From Candidatus Caenarcanales bacterium (GTDB lineage: Bacteria; Cyanobacteriota; Vampirovibrionia; 2-02-FULL-35-15), in contig JAGVKQ010000028.1 in NCBI GenBank assembly GCA_020050435.1, forward strand, positions 1 through 34,750: a stretch of 34,750 nt of DNA, in the 5' to 3' direction. The translations under genes were made by a program, and so were the position numbers. The notes under the pieces were generated by a model. It saw only the letters and a list, made by a program, of their open reading frames with translations. It did not search any database and had not been told where the DNA came from. This document shows positions 395 through 13,659 of this stretch, in pieces (the stretch's first letter is position 1; every line of letters starts with the position of its first letter).

Positions 395-1102
395 ATGACT
401 GAAGAAATAAAAGATACATTTATTGTAGTAGACGATCATCCACCTATTAGAGCTTTTAGTAAATCAATTCTGAAAGAAACTTTTCCAGGCAGCGTTGTTC
501 TAGAAGCTGAATCTGGAAGGCAAGCAATTGAACTTAGCTTAAAAAATAAACCAAAGCTTGTAATTATGGACATAGCGATGCAGGATATTGATGGTATAGA
601 AGCCACACAAAAAATTGTGCAAAATTTGCCCGATACAGGGGTTATTATTTATTCAAATTATGGTGAAGAGGTTTATGTAAGAAAAATCAGACAAACTGTT
701 CCAGTTGATAGAGCTTTTGGATATGTGTTAAAAACAGCTAGTCAGGATCAGTTTACCCAGGCAATTAAACAAGTTTACTCAGGTGAAGTTTGGTTACATC
801 CAGATGTTCAGCAAGTTGTATGGAAGTTGAATCTAAATAAAAAAAGCACTCAACTTACTGATATTCAGCATCAAATATTAATAGCTGTTGCTATAGGTAA
901 AACTAATGATTGGATTGCAGAAAAATTATATATGAGTAATAAGACCATTCAATACCATCTTTATTCTATATATGATAAATTAGGAATAAATAATGCTCAA
1001 AAGAAAGTAAATCCTAGAAATGAAGTAGTTTGCGTATCCTTACTAAAAGGATTAATTGAAGTACAGGACCTTAAGCAGGCTTTTGAAAAAGAAAATGTAT
1101 AA
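395..1102 (+). CDS. NarL/FixJ-type response regulator
   Basis: This is a two-component response regulator of 235 residues: an N-terminal receiver (about 8-125) and a C-terminal LuxR-type helix-turn-helix (about 150-212). Visible receiver residues are the acidic pair D13-D14, the likely phosphate acceptor D59 in VIMDIAM, S87 in the switch position and K113. The HTH part (LTDIQHQILIAVAIGKTNDWIAEKLYMSNKT... region) shows the usual spacing, with a weaker than usual recognition helix. No histidine kinase is adjacent, so it is an orphan regulator locally. Its stop overlaps the next gene by 8 bases (ATGTATAA), so the two are probably translated together. Likely role: transcriptional control, perhaps of its own exported-protein operon; that last part is inference. 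Confidence 0.9.
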   Translation: MTEEIKDTFIVVDDHPPIRAFSKSILKETFPGSVVLEAESGRQAIELSLKNKPKLVIMDIAMQDIDGIEATQKIVQNLPDTGVIIYSNYGEEVYVRKIRQTVPVDRAFGYVLKTASQDQFTQAIKQVYSGEVWLHPDVQQVVWKLNLNKKSTQLTDIQHQILIAVAIGKTNDWIAEKLYMSNKTIQYHLYSIYDKLGINNAQKKVNPRNEVVCVSLLKGLIEVQDLKQAFEKENV

Positions 1103-1754
1103 CTTAAAGAAATCTATAATGGTTTTATTAATTATTGCTTTTGTAATAATTCCTTCTTGTTTTGCTGCATCTGAAAAAAGATATAGGCCAGCCAGCAATT
1201 TGAATGTAGTAAATTATGCTAGAAACCTTACCTTATCTATAATTGATACAAACTTTCGAGGTAGTTGGGTTGTTAATCCTGAAGAAAATGAGCAAAGTCA
1301 TATTAAGGCTCAGAGAGTAATCAGTAGCTTGTCTCAGGTTAAGATTGGTAAAACCTTAAGAGAGGTTAAGAAAATATTAGGAAATCCTTCAGAAGTTAAG
1401 GGAAATGGAAGAATCTTGCTATATGGATTACGAAATGAAGATGGTTCATATAAAGATTTAACCCAGATTTTTCTAGATGAAAAACTACAACGTGTGATAG
1501 CCGTCACATCATTCAATCCCAAAAATATAGTAGAAAATATAGGGGTGTCAATTGGCGATCCAATTGATAGAATTATTTCAGTTTATGGTGAACCAGTAGA
1601 TGAAAAAGACTTTATTGAAGATCAGGATAATAAAGACTATCTTGGAATGTATTATTTATATCCGAGATCTGGTATTGGTTTTCTTATCGGACAAAATAAA
1701 GGTACAAAGAATCCTATTGTTCAAGGAATCCTTGTTTTTGGAAATATTCAATAA
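1095..1754 (+). CDS. Exported protein with two BamE/SmpA-like repeats
   Basis: This is a 219-residue protein. The ATG at 1095 is chosen because the frame upstream of it only duplicates the end of the response regulator, and because a signal peptide then begins at once (basic start, hydrophobic core LLIIAFVIIP, cleavage near FAA). The serine before the cysteine follows a proline, so a lipobox is doubtful. Two related segments appear: IGKTLREVKKILGNPSEV and IGDPIDRIISVYGEPVDE, each matching the short helix-turn pattern of BamE/SmpA-type folds (many of which bind outer-membrane machinery or inhibitors). It lies between the regulator and the CHAT protein, 16 bases before the latter. The function is unknown; a periplasmic partner of the CHAT protein is a reasonable inference. 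Confidence 0.75.
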   Translation: MYNLKKSIMVLLIIAFVIIPSCFAASEKRYRPASNLNVVNYARNLTLSIIDTNFRGSWVVNPEENEQSHIKAQRVISSLSQVKIGKTLREVKKILGNPSEVKGNGRILLYGLRNEDGSYKDLTQIFLDEKLQRVIAVTSFNPKNIVENIGVSIGDPIDRIISVYGEPVDEKDFIEDQDNKDYLGMYYLYPRSGIGFLIGQNKGTKNPIVQGILVFGNIQ

Positions 1755-1770
1755 AAGAGAAATTCTTTTT

Positions 1771-4557
1771 ATGACAAAGCCAACACCAATTTTATTTATA
1801 ATAATTCTACTAGGATTTAGTTTCTTGTGCTCTCATGCTGAGGCAGCAACTCCTGTTATTTATAACTGTGTTCCTCAATCTCTCCAACAGGGGCAAATAA
1901 CAACAGCTGTTATTACGGGAGAAAATTTAAATTCTACCGTAGTTGGAGTTAGCGGTGGAGATGTTTATGCATTAATTTTAAAACAAGATCCTGGTGGAAT
2001 GAGTTTAACTATTCAATTTGCTACTAGACCTACAGCTGAACCTGGTGAAAGAGAGTTATATCTTCGTAATGCTAGTAATGAAGTTGAAAAATATCTGATA
2101 AAAATAATACCAAGTAGTGCTCCTGTTGTTGAAGGTATTTCACCGGGATTTACCACGCCAGGATCCACATTGCTTTTATATTTAACTGGAATGGGACTGA
2201 CTGATTCTATTGTTTCTACTGCTTCAAATGATATTCTTATTAATTCTTATAGAGGATCTCCAGATGGTACTTTAATTTATCTTTCTGTTTCAATCTCAAA
2301 AGAAACCCAGCCTGGTACATATCAATTCTATGTAAGTGCTCCTGGCGGCCAATCTCAAGCAGATTTAGTTGTAGCTTCTACTGTTAAAGAAGAAGATTCT
2401 TCCTCTTATTCTGACCCTTATTCTCCGGGGATATATTCCATTGAACGAAATCCATCAAATAGCGATCAAGTTGTTTTAAGAGGGGCTATGTTTGATGTCG
2501 ACCCATCAAAAAATACAGTTACTTTATTTGAAAATAATGATGGTGTTTTAATTGGTCGGCAAGTTGAAGTTCTTTCATCCAGCCAAAACGAACTTATTAT
2601 TAATTTACCTGAAGGTTTAAAATCTGACTCTATTAGCTTTGCTGTTTCAAATACAGATGGAAAATCAAGTAATATCAAAACATTTACTTCCTCCTCTGAA
2701 ACTCAAACATCTACAAATGCTCCTGAACTTGATAGTGAAAGTGCTAACTCTCTTCCTGGCGAATCACAAGAAACAACAGCCTCAAGTGCTGGACCACAAG
2801 CCACATCAGTATCAAACACTGTTCAAGCAAGTAACACTAATACAGCAAATGCCCAGGGTGCAAGTTCTCCTCCTGTAGAGCAAGCAACTGCTACTGCTCA
2901 AAGTCCTCAGCAAGACCCAGGTAAAACCCCATCTGCTATTGCTCCAAGTCCTACCACAACCGTAACTGACAAAAACATTGAAGCAATTGCAGAAGTTAAT
3001 ATTGCTCAAAATATAAAAAACTTAAACCCTTATCTTTTTGCTAATAATGCAAACCAGGATTCAAAAATTGAAACAAAATTCAATTCTAATGAAATGAAGG
3101 ATCCAGCAAAAATTCTTTCTTCCATAGAAGAAAGCAAACAAATTAAAACACAGGTTGATCTAATAATGTTAGCTCTTGATCAATCAAAAGGTAATGAAGA
3201 GCTTTCAAATGCTGCTAAAAAAGCAGAAGGTTTAAAATCTAAAGTTGAAGAGCTTGAAAGAGTTATAGAATTAGAAAAGCAAAAAAATAAACCAAATCAA
3301 AGAAAATTAGTAAAATATCAAGAACTCTTGGCTTCTGCAAGTGCAGAATCTAGATCACAAACATTCGCTCTTTTAAATAACCTCCTTAAATATAAGCCAC
3401 AGTTGAAAAACCTTTTAACTCAAAAGCCTTTTGATTTGGCTGCAATTCAGCCTAGTATTCCGAATAATACTGCAGTCATTCAATACGTACCCACTGAAGA
3501 AGGTTTGATTATATTTGTTGTTGATAGTAAAAATTTAAAAACAAGAATTAATAAATCAATCACTAAAGATATCTTAAATAAAGAAGTTCAGGAATACAGA
3601 CAACTTTTTGAAAAAGAAATTGATAGGATAAAAGTAACAGGAAGAGTTACCCCCATAGTGAGTTGGAAAGACGACAAATCCATTACTTATAAAAAAGAGA
3701 TTCTCCCATTAAAAGAAAAAAATATTTTACTTTATAATGCTCTAATAGCTCCAATAGAAAAGGATATTGCAAATAAAACCGTTCTAGCAATTATTGCTAA
3801 TGGTTGGTTAACATATCTTCCTTTTCAGGCTTTAGCAAAGCCTACAAAAGAGGGTGATCTTAAATTTTTAATTTCTGAGAAATCAATTGTCTCCTTAGAT
3901 AGTGTAATTGCATTAAATAAAACAATTCCAGCATCTATATCAGGCATGTCAAATGTCACTATTTTTGCAAATCCAGACAACTCTCTTCCTGGAGCGAATA
4001 AAGAAGCTGAACTTATAAGTAAGGTTTACTCAATGTCCACTATGTCATTTGTTCAACAACCATTTACTGTTTCTATTATTAATCAGTTAGCAAAAAAAGC
4101 AGACATTTTACATTTAGCCACTCATGGGCATTTAGATGGATCAGATATAAATGCAAGTTATCTTGTTATTGGAAAAAAATTAGAAAAAGGTAAAACTTTA
4201 CAGAAGAAACTTTGGCTGAAAGATATCTATGATTTAAATCTTGAGAATAGTAAACTGGTTGTACTTAGTGGTTGTGATACTGGCAAAATTGGCAACCTTT
4301 CAAGTGAGCCTGATGACATTGTTGGCAGTTTGGCTTCAGCATTTAGAGTTGCAGGGGCAAATACTATTTTGGCAAGTCTATGGAAAGCTCATGATGAAGC
4401 CACTAAAATCATTATGCAAAATTTCTATGAGAACTTGAAGCTTGGATACAATAAAGCGGAATCTCTGAGACGTGCTGAACTTAAACTAAAAGAAAATCCA
4501 AAATACAGTCACCCACTTTTCTGGTCATTGTTTACTTTGATAGGTGATTGGAGATAA
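1771..4557 (+). CDS. Secreted TIG-like/CHAT-domain protease
   Basis: The protein has 928 residues, counted from the ATG at 1771. A longer frame exists upstream but overlaps the previous gene; the chosen start gives a clean signal peptide ending at AEA-A near residue 26. Order of parts: signal peptide; two or three Ig-like TIG-type beta domains (about 27-305); a Ser/Thr/Ala/Gln/Pro-rich linker (about 305-410); helical and coiled-coil region (about 450-560); CHAT domain (about 570-928). CHAT is a caspase-like peptidase fold; the expected catalytic pair is visible as H785 in LATHGH and C835 in LSGCDTG, followed by the conserved GLA.AF..AGA..ILASLW-type segment and a C-terminal FW..F.LIGD. Most exported CHAT proteins I know of carry TPR repeats; none are evident here. 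It likely acts outside the cytoplasm. The substrate is unknown. Confidence 0.88.
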   Translation: MTKPTPILFIIILLGFSFLCSHAEAATPVIYNCVPQSLQQGQITTAVITGENLNSTVVGVSGGDVYALILKQDPGGMSLTIQFATRPTAEPGERELYLRNASNEVEKYLIKIIPSSAPVVEGISPGFTTPGSTLLLYLTGMGLTDSIVSTASNDILINSYRGSPDGTLIYLSVSISKETQPGTYQFYVSAPGGQSQADLVVASTVKEEDSSSYSDPYSPGIYSIERNPSNSDQVVLRGAMFDVDPSKNTVTLFENNDGVLIGRQVEVLSSSQNELIINLPEGLKSDSISFAVSNTDGKSSNIKTFTSSSETQTSTNAPELDSESANSLPGESQETTASSAGPQATSVSNTVQASNTNTANAQGASSPPVEQATATAQSPQQDPGKTPSAIAPSPTTTVTDKNIEAIAEVNIAQNIKNLNPYLFANNANQDSKIETKFNSNEMKDPAKILSSIEESKQIKTQVDLIMLALDQSKGNEELSNAAKKAEGLKSKVEELERVIELEKQKNKPNQRKLVKYQELLASASAESRSQTFALLNNLLKYKPQLKNLLTQKPFDLAAIQPSIPNNTAVIQYVPTEEGLIIFVVDSKNLKTRINKSITKDILNKEVQEYRQLFEKEIDRIKVTGRVTPIVSWKDDKSITYKKEILPLKEKNILLYNALIAPIEKDIANKTVLAIIANGWLTYLPFQALAKPTKEGDLKFLISEKSIVSLDSVIALNKTIPASISGMSNVTIFANPDNSLPGANKEAELISKVYSMSTMSFVQQPFTVSIINQLAKKADILHLATHGHLDGSDINASYLVIGKKLEKGKTLQKKLWLKDIYDLNLENSKLVVLSGCDTGKIGNLSSEPDDIVGSLASAFRVAGANTILASLWKAHDEATKIIMQNFYENLKLGYNKAESLRRAELKLKENPKYSHPLFWSLFTLIGDWR

Positions 4558-4579
4558 TTGTCATTGCAAACGAAGCTAC

Positions 4580-4710
4580 TTTGTCATTGCGAGGAGCCAT
4601 GAAGTGGCGACGTGGCAATCTTATAAGGAAACTATCGTGAAAGGTGACTTTGCTTAAGTTTGTTTAGGTGTAAGATTGCTTCAGGTCTTGCAGACCTTCG
4701 CAATGACAAA
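4580..4710. repeat. GTCATTGC-type palindromic element, copy 1
   Basis: A 131-bp element has 13-bp perfect terminal inverted repeats, TTTGTCATTGCGA (4580-4592) and its complement (4698-4710). It has an inner inverted pair, GGCAATCTTA near 4614 and TAAGATTGC near 4671. Each arm has a mini-hairpin: GCCAT-GAA-GTGGC (4596-4608) on the left and AGGTCT-TGC-AGACCT (4683-4697) on the right. A partial extra end (TTGTCATTGC at 4558-4567) precedes it. It fills the gap between the convergent CHAT and ftsH genes and may double as a two-way terminator. Two relatives occur at 18160-18280 and 22078-22119. Confidence 0.85.
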
Positions 4711-6633
4711 TTACGATTCCGTTACGTTAATAACGTGTGAGTTGCCATTAGTTGAGGCATCTGGCTTTTTTATATTTTTCTTAGACTCAAATACAAACGT
4801 ATCTGAAATTACTTTATCAACAATTTCTTTAAATTCATCTTTATCTATGGTTTCTTTATCTAGTAAAACCTGAGTTAATGCATCCATTTGTTTTCTTTTA
4901 TCTGAAAGAAGTTTTTTGCACTCATCATACAATTTATCTATTATTTTCTTCATTTCAGAATCTATTTGAGTAGCAATCTCTTCACTGTAATCTCTAGAAT
5001 GTCCAAAATCACGACCAAGGAAAACATGTTCATTGCTTTGACCAAAAGTCATTGGACCAAGTCTTTCACTCATACCAAACTGTGTAACCATTTTACGCAA
5101 CAATTCAGAAGCTTTTTGGAGATCATTTTGAGCCCCAGTAGTAATGTCACCAAAAACTAATTCTTCAGCAATTCTGCCTCCAAGGAGAACCTTGATTCTG
5201 GCTAAAAGCTGTGACTTTGAATAGTTTAAATGATCTTCTTCTGGGAGGGTAAGAGTCAGTCCAAGAGCCATTCCACGAGGAATAATTGTTACTTTGTGTA
5301 GTGGGTCAGAATCTTTTTCATAATAAGCTACAAGTGCATGACCAATTTCATGATATGCAGTGATTTCTTTATCTTTTGGAGTAATAATTCTTGTTTTTCT
5401 TTCTGGACCTGCAAGTACTTTATCAATAGCTTTTTCTAGGTCTTCCATGTCAATTTCACGTTTGTTGTCACGTGCTGCAAGTAAAGCAGCTTCATTTAAA
5501 GTATTTGAAAGATCTGCACCTGTAAATCCTGGTGTTCTTCTAGCAATTATTCTTAGATCTACATCTTTCCCAAATGGTTTACCTTTAGCATGTACTTTTA
5601 AAATAGCCTCTCTACCAGAAATGTCTGGTCTATCAATAACTATTTGTCTGTCAAATCTACCAGGTCTAAGCAAAGCACTATCTAAGATGTCAGGTCTATT
5701 TGTAGCAGCTATAACTATAATACCTGTAGTAGCTTCAAATCCGTCCATTTCAACAAGTAGTTGGTTTAAGGTTTGTTCTCTTTCGTCGTGACCGCCACCA
5801 AGTCCTGCGCCACGTTGTCTACCTACAGCATCAATTTCATCTACAAATACTATGCAAGGAGCGCTTTTTTTTGCTTGGTCAAAAAGATCTCTTACACGTG
5901 AAGCACCTACACCTACAAACATTTCCACAAAGTCTGAACCGCTAATACTAAAAAATGGTACTCCAGCTTCTCCTGCTACAGCTCTTGCCAATAATGTTTT
6001 ACCAGTACCTGGTGAGCCTACAAGTAAAACTCCTTTAGGTATCCTTGCACCTATAGCAAGATACTTTTCACTACTTTTTAAAAAATCAACAACTTCTTGT
6101 AATTCTTGTTTTGACTCATCAATTCCAGCCACATCAGCAAAAGTAACCTTGACCTTGCTGTCGTGTTGTAATTTTGCTCTGCTTCTACCAAAGTTCATAG
6201 CTTGATTGCCGCCGCTTTGCGCACTTCTAATCATAAAGATAAGCATTATAAGGAATAGTGCAGGGACAAAAATAGAGGTAAGAAAATTAAACCAAAAACT
6301 TCCAGTACTTGAAGCTCTCACATCAACATCAATCATATGCTTAACAAGCTTGTCAGCTAAGTCTTTTAAAGATTTCCCATCTGAGTTCGGAACTCTTACT
6401 GTTTTTTCTGTTTCATCAGGAAAAATCACTAACAAAGAATCTGAGTCATTGGTAACAATCACTTTTTTTATAGGACTTTGACCTTCAATAGGGAATGCTA
6501 GTCTTATGAACTCACTATAAGTAAGTACATTTGTTCTTTCTTTCTTAGCCACAATAGTTATTATGAATAGGCTAAGAAGCATAAATAAAACTACAAAAGG
6601 TATGGTGGCGCTAAATTTTTTCATTTCATTCAT
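4711..6633 (-). CDS. ftsH: ATP-dependent zinc metalloprotease FtsH
   Basis: This is the membrane-bound AAA+ protease that extracts and degrades misassembled membrane proteins and short-lived regulators; it works as a hexamer facing the cytoplasm. The 640 residues match the family length. Visible parts: first membrane helix (about 10-29), periplasmic FtsH_ext domain (about 32-110), second helix (about 115-136), AAA module with Walker A GSPGTGKT (206-213) and Walker B IVFVDEID (261-268), the second region of homology around 309-327, and the zinc site HEIGH (428-432). The C-terminal tail is polar. The ATG at 6633 is followed by another in frame three codons later; there is no strong Shine-Dalgarno for either. 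It is last in the tilS-hpt-ftsH order known from many bacteria, 31 bases after hpt. Confidence 0.98.
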
Positions 6634-6664
6634 ATTTTATCATGAATTAAGAGTTACAAATCTC

Positions 6665-7201
6665 TTATAATTCAACTCCTAAAAAGGGTAAATGTCTAAA
6701 CTTTTCTGCAGTATCTAGTCCATACCCTACCAAGAAGTAATTACCCACATTAAAGCCTACATAATCTGCTTTTACATTTACTTCTCTTCTTTCATCCTTA
6801 TTTAACAAGCAAGCAACTCTTAGGCTTTTTGGTTTGTATTGAGTGACAATATATTCTTTTAAGAAACCAATCGTTCTACCACTATCTATTATGTCTTCAA
6901 TAATGAGAATGTCTCTTCCCGATAAGTCTGGCAATGTAAGCATTGGAGCATCAATCTTTCCGCTTGATACTTCTTTTGAACCATAGCTTGATATCCTTAC
7001 AAATTCTATTTGTAAAGGATGTTCAATTCTTTTAATCAAATCTGATGTGAACATAAAAGCACCCTTTAAAACTGATATAACCACAATAGGTTTAGTAATT
7101 TTTTTCTTTGAATAATCGTTATTTATTTTCTTTGCTAAAGAGCTAACAGCTTTTTTTATTTTTAATTCCGAATAAACTACTTTTATTTTTTTTGCTTTCA
7201 T
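6665..7201 (-). CDS. hpt: Hypoxanthine phosphoribosyltransferase
   Basis: This purine-salvage enzyme joins hypoxanthine (and usually guanine) to PRPP, giving IMP or GMP, in the cytoplasm. It has 178 residues, a normal length. The PRPP-binding loop ILIIEDIIDSGRT is at about 98-110, and the base-binding end includes DYVGFNVGNYFLVGYGLD. Its ATG lies 2 bases after the tilS stop, with GGAG about 6 bases upstream inside tilS, so the two are translationally linked. The window also holds purF, so both salvage and de novo purine synthesis are represented. Confidence 0.95.
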   Translation of the reverse strand: MKAKKIKVVYSELKIKKAVSSLAKKINNDYSKKKITKPIVVISVLKGAFMFTSDLIKRIEHPLQIEFVRISSYGSKEVSSGKIDAPMLTLPDLSGRDILIIEDIIDSGRTIGFLKEYIVTQYKPKSLRVACLLNKDERREVNVKADYVGFNVGNYFLVGYGLDTAEKFRHLPFLGVEL

Positions 7202-7203
7202 AA

Positions 7204-8535
7204 TTACTCCGATGTTGAGAACTTTAAAAAATGCGTGGGTGACTTTATGACTTTAATTTTTTCGCTGATTGAGTATCCGGGGATCCATAAAACCTCATTT
7301 CTAAAACATAGTAATGGTAAATTATATCTTTCTTCTTTAGATATTTTTTTATTTAAAAGATAGTTTTTTAATTTTGTGGTTTTTTTGAATCCAAGGGGTT
7401 GAAATATGTCTTTAGGACTTCTAAATCTAACTTTTAAGCTCTTCCTTTTATAGGAAGACAGGTTAGCAAAAGCTGTCATTGAGTTGTCTTTTGGGTACTT
7501 GCCGTTAAATTTACTTAGCTTAATTTCTTTAAAAGTAAGTTTGGAGTTTTTATTTAATTTTGTCGTTTCTTCTTTTTCTGGTCCAAAATATATATGTTCT
7601 TTTGTAGATATAAGAAAAATATCTTTTGATAAAGAAATCTTTTTACTAGTACTAATATCATCTAAAACACCTTGAATCTTAGATATGTTTCCTTTGATCT
7701 TGATCTTTGACATTAACCAATAAATAAATGATTTCTGTTCATACTCACTCATTTTAGAAAACTGTTTTTTATTGACTTTAATATGATGTTTTCCTATTGA
7801 ATTAATTAAATCTGTTGAATTATTGTAAATGTGATCTAGTGTCTTATCCTGAGAAAAAACCAAATCACTTAGGTTTAAAAGATTTTGATCATAATTACTG
7901 TTAACCTCTTCTAGTAGAGGGAGAATCTTTTTTCTGATGAAATTTCTTTTGTGACTTATATCTTTATTTGTTTTGTCCTCGTTAAAAGAGATTTTATTCA
8001 CTTTTGCATAATCAACAATTTCTTTCTTGTTTAAATTTAGCAGCGGTCTAAATACAGTTAAATCCTTTGAATATTGAAAAAAATCTTTAATTGGCATTAA
8101 TCCTTTTGGACCAGTGCCCCTAAGCAGCCTGAAAATAATTGTTTCTATAAAGTCATCTTTATGGTGTGCAGTACAAACAAAATCAAGATTATGTCTTTTT
8201 GCTATTTCCTCAAAGAAAGAATATCTTTGCTCTCTTGCAACCTCTTCATTATTTATGTTCTTGGTTTTATTTTCACCTTGTATAAAATCAATATTTTTTA
8301 CTTTGCAAAAATTTTCTACAAGCTTTAAGTCTAAGTGTGATTCTTCTCTCCACTTATGATTGAAGTGTAATACGTGCAAATGTATTTTTAAATCTTTACT
8401 AAGTTTGCTCATGAGATCAAGCAAAACCATAGAATCTATGCCACCAGAGATAGCTATGCCAATTTTTCTTCCTTTTAAAAAATTAATTTTATCTAAGACT
8501 TTAGAACTCAGTGTTGGGATCTTTTTCTTTATCAT
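7204..8535 (-). CDS. tilS: tRNA(Ile)-lysidine synthetase
   Basis: TilS puts lysine on C34 of the tRNA(Ile) with anticodon CAU, turning it into an AUA reader; it is essential in most bacteria and matters in an AUA-rich genome such as this. The PP-loop SGGIDS is at 30-35 if counted from the ATG at 8535. The N-terminal ATPase domain runs to about 220, and a TilS C-terminal domain is visible in the last 75 residues (RFRSPKDIFQPLGF...). An in-frame ATG 12 codons upstream (8571) would lengthen the overlap with the preceding gene from 35 to 71 bases; neither has a clear Shine-Dalgarno, and 8535 gives the usual distance to the PP-loop. Length from 8535 is 443 residues. Confidence 0.93.
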   Translation of the reverse strand: MIKKKIPTLSSKVLDKINFLKGRKIGIAISGGIDSMVLLDLMSKLSKDLKIHLHVLHFNHKWREESHLDLKLVENFCKVKNIDFIQGENKTKNINNEEVAREQRYSFFEEIAKRHNLDFVCTAHHKDDFIETIIFRLLRGTGPKGLMPIKDFFQYSKDLTVFRPLLNLNKKEIVDYAKVNKISFNEDKTNKDISHKRNFIRKKILPLLEEVNSNYDQNLLNLSDLVFSQDKTLDHIYNNSTDLINSIGKHHIKVNKKQFSKMSEYEQKSFIYWLMSKIKIKGNISKIQGVLDDISTSKKISLSKDIFLISTKEHIYFGPEKEETTKLNKNSKLTFKEIKLSKFNGKYPKDNSMTAFANLSSYKRKSLKVRFRSPKDIFQPLGFKKTTKLKNYLLNKKISKEERYNLPLLCFRNEVLWIPGYSISEKIKVIKSPTHFLKFSTSE

Positions 8536-9583: not shown

Positions 9584-9886
9584 ATGAAAGAAAAAAATAA
9601 CTTAAAACCAGAGCTTTTAGCTGTTTCAAAAAGAGGAACTATTATTGAGAACTTGTATTCAGGTTGGATTTGTGTGGTTAACAAAGATAAGAAAGTTGTA
9701 TATAGAAAAGGCAATGTAAATGATAGTGCATTTTTAAGGTCATGTGCAAAACCAGTTCAGGCTATTCCCGTAATTGAATCAGATATTAAACTTACACAAA
9801 AAGAACTAGCTATTATTTGTGGATCTCACACAGGAAGTAAATATCATCAAGCCGTCTTAAAAGAAATAATAAAAAAAATAACTTAA
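9584..9886 (+). CDS. L-asparaginase II family, N-terminal part (broken frame)
   Basis: These 100 codons encode the N-terminal third of an asparaginase of the PF06089 type (L-asparaginase II family). Matching features are the start ELLAVSKRGTIIENLYSGWI, the segment FLRSCAKPVQAIPVIES and LTQKELAIICGSHTGSKYHQ. The frame ends at TAA 9884-9886, just past a run of eight A (9871-9878). The rest of the protein continues in the -1 frame (see next entry). It is divergent from the NTF2-like gene, with about 60 bases between. No Shine-Dalgarno is clear before the ATG. Confidence 0.8.
   Translation: MKEKNNLKPELLAVSKRGTIIENLYSGWICVVNKDKKVVYRKGNVNDSAFLRSCAKPVQAIPVIESDIKLTQKELAIICGSHTGSKYHQAVLKEIIKKIT
9871..9878 (+). 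other. A8 tract where the asparaginase reading frame shifts by -1
   Basis: In frame 0 the tract reads ATA AAA AAA ATA ACT TAA. A -1 slip gives AAA AAA AAT AAC TTA and continues through family-typical sequence (LLKCGIHMPFDE) into the C-terminal part. A AAA AAA is a classic slippery heptamer, and runs of A this long also permit RNA-polymerase slippage. A true deletion or a sequencing error in the homopolymer are equally possible from sequence alone. Confidence 0.7.
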
Positions 9887-9915
9887 GAGTAGAGCTTCTT
9901 AAATGTGGTATTCAT

Positions 9916-10563
9916 ATGCCATTTGATGAAGAAGAGAAAATTAAACTAATTAGGAAAAATTTAAAACCTAATGTTTTGCATAATAACTGCTCTGGAAAAC
10001 ACTTGGGAATGCTTTGTGTATGTAAAAAAAATAAATATAATTTTGATAACTATTTGAGCTTAAAACATCCATTGCAAATGCAAATATTAAAAAGTATTCA
10101 AGAGCTTTCTGAGTATAAAAATATTCAAATTGCCGTAGATGGATGTGGATTGCCAGTCTTCTCTCTCCCCATAACTAACATTGCAAAACTATTTTCAAAC
10201 TTTACTAAAGAGTCGCCCCACCGGGGCGCCTATACAAAAATAATTGAGGCTATGACTTCATTTCCTTATTTGGTTGGTGGTAAAGGTCAGATAGATTCTG
10301 AGTTGATGAATCTTTCAGAGGGAAAATTAATTGCTAAAGTTGGTGCAGATGGCATAATTATAGCTGCACATGATGGGAATGCACTTGTTGTAAAAATTGC
10401 TGATGGCAGTCCTAAAATCAGGGCATTTATTTTTTTAAAGATGCTTGTAAAACTTGGCTTGATAAAAGAAAAAGCTATTTTAAAATCAAATCTAAAAGAT
10501 ATGTATCTTGGAGAAATTAAAAACGTTGTAGGGAATGTTGTGGGGAAGCTAATTTATTGTTAA
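9916..10563 (+). CDS. L-asparaginase II family, C-terminal part (broken frame)
   Basis: These 215 codons from the first ATG carry the rest of the same enzyme, which would convert asparagine to aspartate and ammonia. The clearest family block is LHNNCSGKHLGML, followed by VDGCGLPVFSLP, YLVGGKGQIDSELM and the KVGADGIIIAA region. Coding matches begin upstream of this ATG, from about 9877, so the ATG at 9916 is only the first start codon available if the two parts are translated separately. Joined by a -1 shift, the product would be about 326 residues, the normal family length. A short GC-rich palindrome (CGCCCC-ACC-GGGGCG) lies in frame at 10213-10227. The stop overlaps the end of the convergent gene by 15 bases. 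Confidence 0.8.
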   Translation: MPFDEEEKIKLIRKNLKPNVLHNNCSGKHLGMLCVCKKNKYNFDNYLSLKHPLQMQILKSIQELSEYKNIQIAVDGCGLPVFSLPITNIAKLFSNFTKESPHRGAYTKIIEAMTSFPYLVGGKGQIDSELMNLSEGKLIAKVGADGIIIAAHDGNALVVKIADGSPKIRAFIFLKMLVKLGLIKEKAILKSNLKDMYLGEIKNVVGNVVGKLIYC

Positions 10564-12438: not shown

Positions 12439-13659
12439 CTAGTGACATGCTCCACTAGTGAAGTTCTTAAGTCCAATTTTTTGTGCTTCACACTTATTGG
12501 TATAAGTTACGCCATCACAACCACAAACGGGTGCAGATATAGGAGCACACTTTACTCTGCTTACATTAAATAAATAACATTTATCTCTAAAAAAGACCTT
12601 ACCCGGTGGGCATATGCAGGAATTCTCTGAACATGAAAGAGTGCCACAGCCTGTTACACAGCCATTAGCATCTTTAGGTGGGTTACTGTATGTGCAGCCT
12701 GAAGCTGGTAAACATATAGGAGGAATAGGGCAATTGTTTTGTGAATAGGTGAAGTCAGATATATAATTGACGCCTTCTATACCAATAAAGTAAATCACAC
12801 CTTTTGAAATATTTGATAAATCTGGAATTTCAGGTATAGTAATTTTAACTTCCTTATCATTTATTAAAGCGAAGGTGCCTTTAATTGAAGGGCTTCCGCC
12901 GTTATACACTGTTCCAGAAAAGATTACAGCTTTTAATGCACCAAGATTACTACCATTAACCGTAATAATATCTCCTGATTTTCCTCTAGTAGTAGAAAGA
13001 TTAGAAATAGTTGGAACATCTTTAACATTCTCACTAAGATCTTCCCAGTAATTTTTAATTACTACAAGTTCTTTTTTATAAGCACGAGCTCTCCATAATT
13101 CTTGCCTAACTTCATTTGCATCACCACTGTTTATATCATTAGCAACACCACTAACTGGATAGTCTAAGGGTACTTGAGTTAAAAAAGCTCCAAGAAGAGC
13201 TTTTAAATCTTTAATTCTTTCTTTTGTTCTATCTAAATTTAAGTTTATATCTTTTAAATGTTCTTGAATAAGTTCTTTGTCTTCATCTCCATATATATAA
13301 ACTTTAATATATGGACCTCTTTCTATGGGTTCATTAATTTTATTTATTTCCTGGCGAACTAAGTCTGTATATCCAGTTTGTAGACTGTTATCAAGTCCTT
13401 TTACGTCTACAGGAAGAGATGCCTGTAAAATAAATGAGCCTATTAAAGCTTCTAGAGCAGTTAATCTTTCTAATCTTGCTGTGGGATCATAGAATCTAAA
13501 AGTATCATGTTCAAATATTAATTGATCATCCGTAAATATATTTCCATTCCCATAAATAGTAAGTGGCACCGGTACTGCACTCGCCTCCGCTCCACTAAAA
13601 ATAAAACCACTATTAAAAAACAAACTCACAGCTAAAAAAATACTTAAAAATCTTTTCAT
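12439..13659 (-). CDS. Exported Kazal-type protease inhibitor with a TIG-like domain
   Basis: A 406-residue protein; AGGAG lies 5 bases before the ATG. Signal peptide to about 27 (AEA-S). A helical middle (about 45-200) has two related stretches (ERLTALEALIGSFILQASLP and RIKDLKALLGAFLTQVPLD), suggesting an internal duplication. A TIG-like beta domain follows (about 213-290), then a cysteine-rich region ending in a Kazal domain (about 368-405) with PVCGCDGVTYTNKCEAQ, the Kazal core. Kazal domains inhibit serine proteases by presenting a loop; here it would act outside the cell or in the periplasm. The CHAT protein also has TIG-like domains, but CHAT is a cysteine peptidase, so an inhibitor-target link is speculation. 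It stands alone on this strand. Confidence 0.85.
   Translation of the reverse strand: MKRFLSIFLAVSLFFNSGFIFSGAEASAVPVPLTIYGNGNIFTDDQLIFEHDTFRFYDPTARLERLTALEALIGSFILQASLPVDVKGLDNSLQTGYTDLVRQEINKINEPIERGPYIKVYIYGDEDKELIQEHLKDINLNLDRTKERIKDLKALLGAFLTQVPLDYPVSGVANDINSGDANEVRQELWRARAYKKELVVIKNYWEDLSENVKDVPTISNLSTTRGKSGDIITVNGSNLGALKAVIFSGTVYNGGSPSIKGTFALINDKEVKITIPEIPDLSNISKGVIYFIGIEGVNYISDFTYSQNNCPIPPICLPASGCTYSNPPKDANGCVTGCGTLSCSENSCICPPGKVFFRDKCYLFNVSRVKCAPISAPVCGCDGVTYTNKCEAQKIGLKNFTSGACH

Follow-up and report, generated by a model that had tools for sequence, protein, structure and literature searches.

A conserved three-gene locus

Why should the genes for a response regulator with no kinase beside it, a small exported-looking protein and a putative caspase-like protease lie together in a single run? 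The question is raised by three plus-strand genes at positions 395–4557 of the window, by which we mean the whole stretch of 34,750 nucleotides analyzed here, one contig of a 2.49 Mb Melainabacteria MAG that is about 97% complete. The genes encode a response regulator (RR), a BamE-like protein and a TIG-CHAT protein. As the sequence-only reading of this DNA had stated, they share a strand and either overlap or stand 16 bases apart: the ATG of the BamE-like gene falls inside the 3′ end of the RR gene, giving an overlap of 8 bp, and the TIG-CHAT gene starts 16 bp past the BamE-like stop codon. The features of the locus, with the evidence for each in brackets, are as follows.

333–352, + strand: conserved dyad-like element ACTAGGACTTTTACCAGTAA, about 53–72 bp before the RR gene, candidate RR binding site (family conservation)
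395–1102, + strand: NarL-type response regulator, receiver and LuxR/GerE HTH (Pfam; orthologue in 11 of 11 family genomes)
1095–1754, + strand: exported-looking BamE/BLIP-like protein, 219 aa (alignment, weak Pfam match, fold match)
1326–1520, + strand: first BamE-like repeat, approximate (predicted alpha-beta-beta-beta-beta order; register with the second repeat)
1536–1745, + strand: second BamE-like repeat, approximate (predicted structure; register with the first repeat)
1771–4557, + strand: exported-looking TIG-CHAT protein, 928 aa (CHAT match at 3.4e-51; full-length orthologues only in the window's family)
1771–1845, + strand: signal-peptide-like N-terminus ending ...SHAEA (by eye; hydrophobic N-terminus kept in orthologues)
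1852–2688, + strand: three TIG/IPT-like Ig domains, residues about 28–306 (model pLDDT mostly 75–88; plexin IPT)
2692–2985, + strand: disordered Ser/Thr/Pro-rich linker (pLDDT about 25; poorly conserved)
3730–4548, + strand: CHAT domain with His785 (codon 4123–4125) and Cys835 (codon 4273–4275) (profile, alignment)

The trio is present in the same order and on the same strand in all 11 genomes, from eight genera, of the window's family, a group of non-photosynthetic relatives of cyanobacteria; in two of these a contig end interrupts it, with the pieces placed consistently with contiguity. Across the nine complete loci, the intergenic gaps range from −20 to +16 bp, with start codons picked by eye. 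Identity to the window proteins within the family is 79–86% for the RR and 49–61% for both the BamE-like and TIG-CHAT proteins, and the closest named TIG-CHAT records belong to Candidatus Melainabacteria MAGs (56–60% identity), one of them labelled groundwater. Gene order in relatives, which the sequence-only reading had named as the check on its proposal, is conserved, and within the window's family we saw neither the genes separated nor the CHAT gene alone, the two arrangements that it had named as counter-evidence.

The genes 5′ of the RR differ among the family genomes without the trio being split, and those 3′ of TIG-CHAT are kept across the family, beginning with a convergent ftsH and followed by hpt, tilS and others. 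We found no phage match that would indicate a phage origin. Several other features of the surroundings were recorded. A dispersed palindromic REP/MITE-like repeat lies at 4556–4712, between the CHAT gene and ftsH, and matches eight places in the genome, its own among them, in full or in part. At 9584–10563 on the plus strand, a gene breaks up into two overlapping reading frames around 9856–9877, reflecting either a frameshift or an assembly error; its relatives have a single open frame of 313–331 aa. Large proteins (790–960 aa) with exported-looking starts are encoded near the RR in four family loci and are missing in others.

The response regulator and its kinase

The RR matches the Pfam families Response_reg (4e-20) and GerE (3e-11) and has the makeup of a NarL/FixJ regulator, with an invariant acidic pair, phospho-acceptor Asp, Ser/Thr and Lys in addition to the GerE HTH. 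When 289 genomes of the class were searched, orthologues with E values under 1e-30 turned up solely in the window's family and in one sister lineage, a large-genome lineage of the same class whose best orthologue scores about 1e-55. We sampled 14 loci from 12 genera of this lineage and found the same unit in all of them: a kinase with CHASE2, HisKA_3 and HATPase_c domains, the RR orthologue and an exported-looking BamE-like gene, with a dnaX-like gene farther downstream. None of the 14 loci contains a CHAT gene. The sister-lineage operon resembles that of the window in its orthologous RR, its reciprocal-best kinase, the two-repeat C-terminus of its BamE-like protein and a similar upstream element, and it differs in that the kinase is adjacent, the CHAT gene is absent and the N-terminal region of the BamE-like protein is long and variable.

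Searching the window's family with the sister-lineage kinase, we located a CHASE2-HisKA_3 kinase away from the trio, although in one genome only a fragment is present. In the window's genome it lies outside the window, at contig C12:226077–228053. This unlinked kinase retains all three domains (CHASE2, HisKA_3 and HATPase_c) and intact H, N and G boxes, and the nine loci that we read have conserved flanks, with no RR next to the kinase. In the reverse search with the kinase of the window's genome, the RR-adjacent kinase was the best match in 10 of 10 sister genomes.

The sequence-only reading had called the RR an orphan. This is correct as to position, as no kinase adjoins the trio in any of the 11 family genomes, but two results lead us to reject a kinase-less regulator. 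All 14 sister loci have a CHASE2-HisKA_3 kinase ahead of the RR orthologue, and the search in both directions identified the reciprocal-best kinase of the window's genome away from the trio. On this evidence the RR is no true orphan. Its sensor kinase appears instead to be encoded at a distance, a pairing that we propose for the window's family from orthology to the adjacent pairs. The simplest history, if the direction of change is read correctly, would have the window's family splitting the kinase from the RR and gaining TIG-CHAT downstream.

A conserved element upstream of the regulator

Within the 150 bp preceding the RR gene, the block most strongly conserved across the eight genera is ACTAGGATTTTTRCYAGTAG, with 100 identities against a shuffle mean of 81.8 (sd 1.8, maximum 86 in 100 shuffles). 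This family consensus of the element is an imperfect dyad, which takes the exact form ACTAG-N8-CTAGT in three genera. The best block before the kinase in the sister lineage is CTGGGGTTTWCCCCAG-like and often a perfect dyad, scoring 130 against 107.5 ± 1.5 in shuffles. The two consensus strings, which were chosen by eye, agree at 12 positions in a 16-base stretch, a level that 14 of 20000 shuffles of the letters attained; compared directly with the sister lineage, the window's own upstream region gave a score of 121 against 118.4 ± 3.1, which is not significant. As to position, the CTGGGGTTTWCCCCAG-like dyad lies about 50–150 bp upstream of the sister-lineage kinase, and in several loci a conserved CTAGACTA stretch comes after it.

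When we searched the window's genome with the element, the closest match was the site before the RR. The other genomic matches carry three mismatches, which is near the control level, and yielded no further targets for a regulon; no convincing element precedes the unlinked CHASE2 kinase. A promoter scan returned promoter-like sites no more frequently than in shuffles. The occurrence of an upstream element in both lineages suggests autoregulation by the RR from this candidate site.

The BamE-like protein

In the second protein of the trio, a start resembling a signal peptide precedes a conserved helix and a pair of repeats; the protein has no significant membership in any single Pfam family. 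Its match to the BamE profile (PF04355) is sub-threshold, at 0.022 and 15 bits against a cut-off of 23.2, and we do not assign it to BamE, since the family alignment has neither a conserved Cys after the signal peptide nor a conserved lipobox. With a model whose mean pLDDT is only 58, Foldseek against the PDB returned SAV1118 (2e-4), BLP (4.5e-3) and BamE (5e-3), as well as OsmE, whereas a sequence search of the PDB returned no BLIP or BamE and only chance-like matches. By profile comparison the two repeats are in register, a result that is not significant alone. Of the exported protein with two BamE-like repeats described by the sequence-only reading, the exported-looking start is upheld; the fold matches come from a low-confidence model, and the BamE family match and the repeat register fall short of significance.

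BLIP, BamE/SmpA_OmlA, PepSY and DUF2874 have been united in one periplasmic superfamily whose members probably act as inhibitors and of which PepSY typically accompanies M4 or M36 peptidases (PMC2954215). As predicted, the window's protein would resemble this BLIP-like superfamily in combining an exported-looking start with alpha-beta repeats in tandem. Its counterparts in the sister lineage are 361–621 aa long and are encoded just 3′ of the RR orthologue. As the sister operon lacks a CHAT gene, partnership with CHAT cannot be the only role for which the BamE-like protein evolved; the earlier idea of a small partner dedicated to the CHAT protein does not hold by descent, for the BamE-like protein is found with kinase and RR where CHAT is absent. 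Judged from sequence comparison of the two lineages, the kinase, RR and BamE-like protein are the older partnership and TIG-CHAT is a family-specific addition.

The TIG-CHAT protein

The third protein matches the CHAT profile (PF12770) at 174.8 bits against a cut-off of 24, and a helical segment connects its disordered linker to this domain. In all ten aligned proteins, His785 (in the motif THG) and Cys835 (in SGCDTG) are invariant, which bears out the intact His/Cys pair of the sequence-only reading; the TIG and linker regions, by contrast, have diverged. In the window protein the Pfam TIG match falls below threshold (0.011); four of ten orthologues match TIG, at best at 1e-6, and the top PDB match of the three Ig-like domains, taken from a model with an overall mean pLDDT of 56, is to the IPT domains of plexin. 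No TPR match was found in the ten orthologues, so the protein does not belong with the TPR-CHAT proteins and TIG-like domains do replace TPRs, as had been proposed from the sequence. Among 386 genomes of the phylum, with the best candidates per genome scored, full-length matches occur only in the window's family; elsewhere only the CHAT end matches. Both the BamE-like and TIG-CHAT proteins are probably exported, as read by eye from their N-termini, and TIG-CHAT is a predicted protease.

Two further proteins are recorded here for their domains. One, encoded at 12439–13659 on the minus strand of the window, looks exported and combines a weak TIG match with a C-terminal Kazal-type inhibitor domain. 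The other, found in one family genome at positions 4164–7295 of a locus on contig C238, is a different CHAT protein of 1043 aa encoded downstream of an ECF sigma factor-like gene (by eye).

Relation to known CHAT proteins

The sequence-only reading had regarded an exported CHAT protein as unusual, and we reject this view. The nearest CHAT relatives, which come from the sister lineage and from Cyanobacteria, have a signal-peptide-like N-terminus followed by TPRs and CHAT, and exported-looking TPR-CHAT proteins are common in Cyanobacteriota. Because these nearest relatives in the class and in Cyanobacteria look exported, an exported CHAT protein is not exceptional in the phylum, and the novelty of the window's protein therefore lies in the replacement of TPR by TIG and in its tie to the RR. 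The exported-looking TPR-CHAT proteins have the C-terminal CHAT domain and the signal-peptide-like start in common with it, with CHAT-region matches down to E 6e-43, but they carry TPRs in the position of the TIG domains and, in the loci examined, do not lie beside this RR orthologue.

The TPR-CHAT protein of the type III-E Craspase (Csx29) shares the CHAT fold and the His-Cys dyad with TIG-CHAT. This dyad has been described for both Craspase TPR-CHAT and separase, and the motifs of TIG-CHAT correspond to it (PMC9729208). The NCBIfam match is nonetheless weak (2e-6, 26.9 bits against a cut-off of 300), and TIG-CHAT differs from Csx29 in looking exported and in having TIG instead of TPR. With no type III-E neighbours and no CRISPR genes recognised nearby, we do not place it in type III-E; nor is a link to type III-E or to defence supported, padloc giving no match for the CHAT protein. 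HetF of Anabaena is, like TIG-CHAT, a CHAT-type putative protease, but it sits in the membrane, carries TPRs and interacts with FtsI (PMC8406250), whereas TIG-CHAT shows neither a TPR match nor another obvious membrane segment. We also do not regard TIG-CHAT as a gingipain-type (C25) substrate of type IX secretion, as none of ten orthologues has a C25 match; the CHAT domain reaches residue 926 of 928, too close to the end for a C-terminal sorting domain to follow. A literature search, with most subscription journals outside its coverage, found no paper pairing a CHAT domain with a TIG domain or a CHAT protease with the periplasm, and nothing on the control or substrates of an exported-looking CHAT protein of Cyanobacteriota.

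A candidate pathway for an exported protease

A regulator, an inhibitor-like protein and a caspase-like protease that always occur together in the window's family, with a kinase that appears to lie elsewhere, look like a pathway controlling a protease outside the cell membrane. We consider the chances evenly balanced that the trio is the output arm of a CHASE2-kinase/RR pathway controlling an exported caspase-like protease and its BLIP-fold partner. In such a pathway, a membrane kinase with its CHASE2 sensor outside and its HisKA_3/HATPase portion inside would phosphorylate the RR, which would bind the dyad-like element at 333–352 and control its own operon. The BamE/BLIP-fold protein and the caspase-like protease would both be sent across the inner membrane, with the three TIG domains acting as the binding or display arm of the protease. 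The BLIP-fold protein would most likely restrain or position an extracytoplasmic partner. Because the protease is co-exported, we favour it as the partner that the BLIP-fold protein would control, as proposed for the PepSY/BLIP-like periplasmic inhibitors; ancestrally, the BLIP-fold protein would have acted with the kinase/RR pathway alone. This reading draws on the linkage of the trio, the sister-lineage operons, the reciprocal kinase matches, the upstream elements that exceed shuffles in both lineages, the BLIP-like precedents and the His-Cys dyad. Counting against it are the equally stable gene order downstream, the sister operon without CHAT, the lack of an element ahead of the unlinked kinase and the low overall confidence of the BamE-like and TIG-CHAT models.

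The BLIP-fold partner is perhaps a protease inhibitor or a sensor feedback protein that would bind its target. The second of these roles gives the main rival explanation, which we hold to be plausible but somewhat improbable: the BamE-like protein would serve the CHASE2 kinase from the periplasm, in feedback or as an accessory, and TIG-CHAT would be just another target gene of the pathway that sits in the operon. CHASE domains face outward, and an exported protein could touch CHASE2; the kinase, RR and BamE-like protein also occur together in the sister lineage without CHAT. In the window's family, however, the BamE-like gene stayed with the RR and CHAT genes while the kinase moved away, and the BLIP-like fold has precedents of the protease-inhibitor type (PMC2954215).

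It is quite unlikely that the RR and BamE-like protein are the functional unit and TIG-CHAT a passenger in a rarely rearranging stretch of chromosome. The downstream order of ftsH, hpt and tilS is equally conserved, and synteny alone is consequently weak evidence of shared function. The linkage on the upstream side is more telling because the genes there vary and those downstream do not: this side rearranges without splitting the trio. Moreover, the overlaps and intergenic distances (−20 to +16 bp) measured in nine loci, the shared strand and the convergent ftsH that follows point to co-transcription, and we infer that the three genes form one transcription unit. TIG domains are binding modules, and the catalytic region of the model is of low confidence with protease activity only predicted, but a surface adhesion or scaffold protein built on a CHAT fold without a working protease is very improbable when the catalytic motifs are invariant in ten of ten proteins whose TIG and linker regions diverge.

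Control of an exported protease by the CHASE2-kinase/RR pathway is the reading that we prefer. In a bolder form, which we put forward as a speculation more likely wrong than right, it would be an extracytoplasmic protease switch in which the CHASE2 kinase and RR drive both TIG-CHAT and its own BLIP-fold inhibitor, an envelope or cell-surface counterpart of separase and securin whose inhibitor would have been recruited from an older role on the sensor side.

Implications

Comparison between lineages can match an apparently orphan regulator to its kinase. Exported-looking CHAT proteins are widespread in Cyanobacteriota, and in one lineage such a protein comes with a regulator and with a candidate kinase, DNA site and protein partner, each of these candidate ties being testable in Escherichia coli or in vitro without culture of the host.
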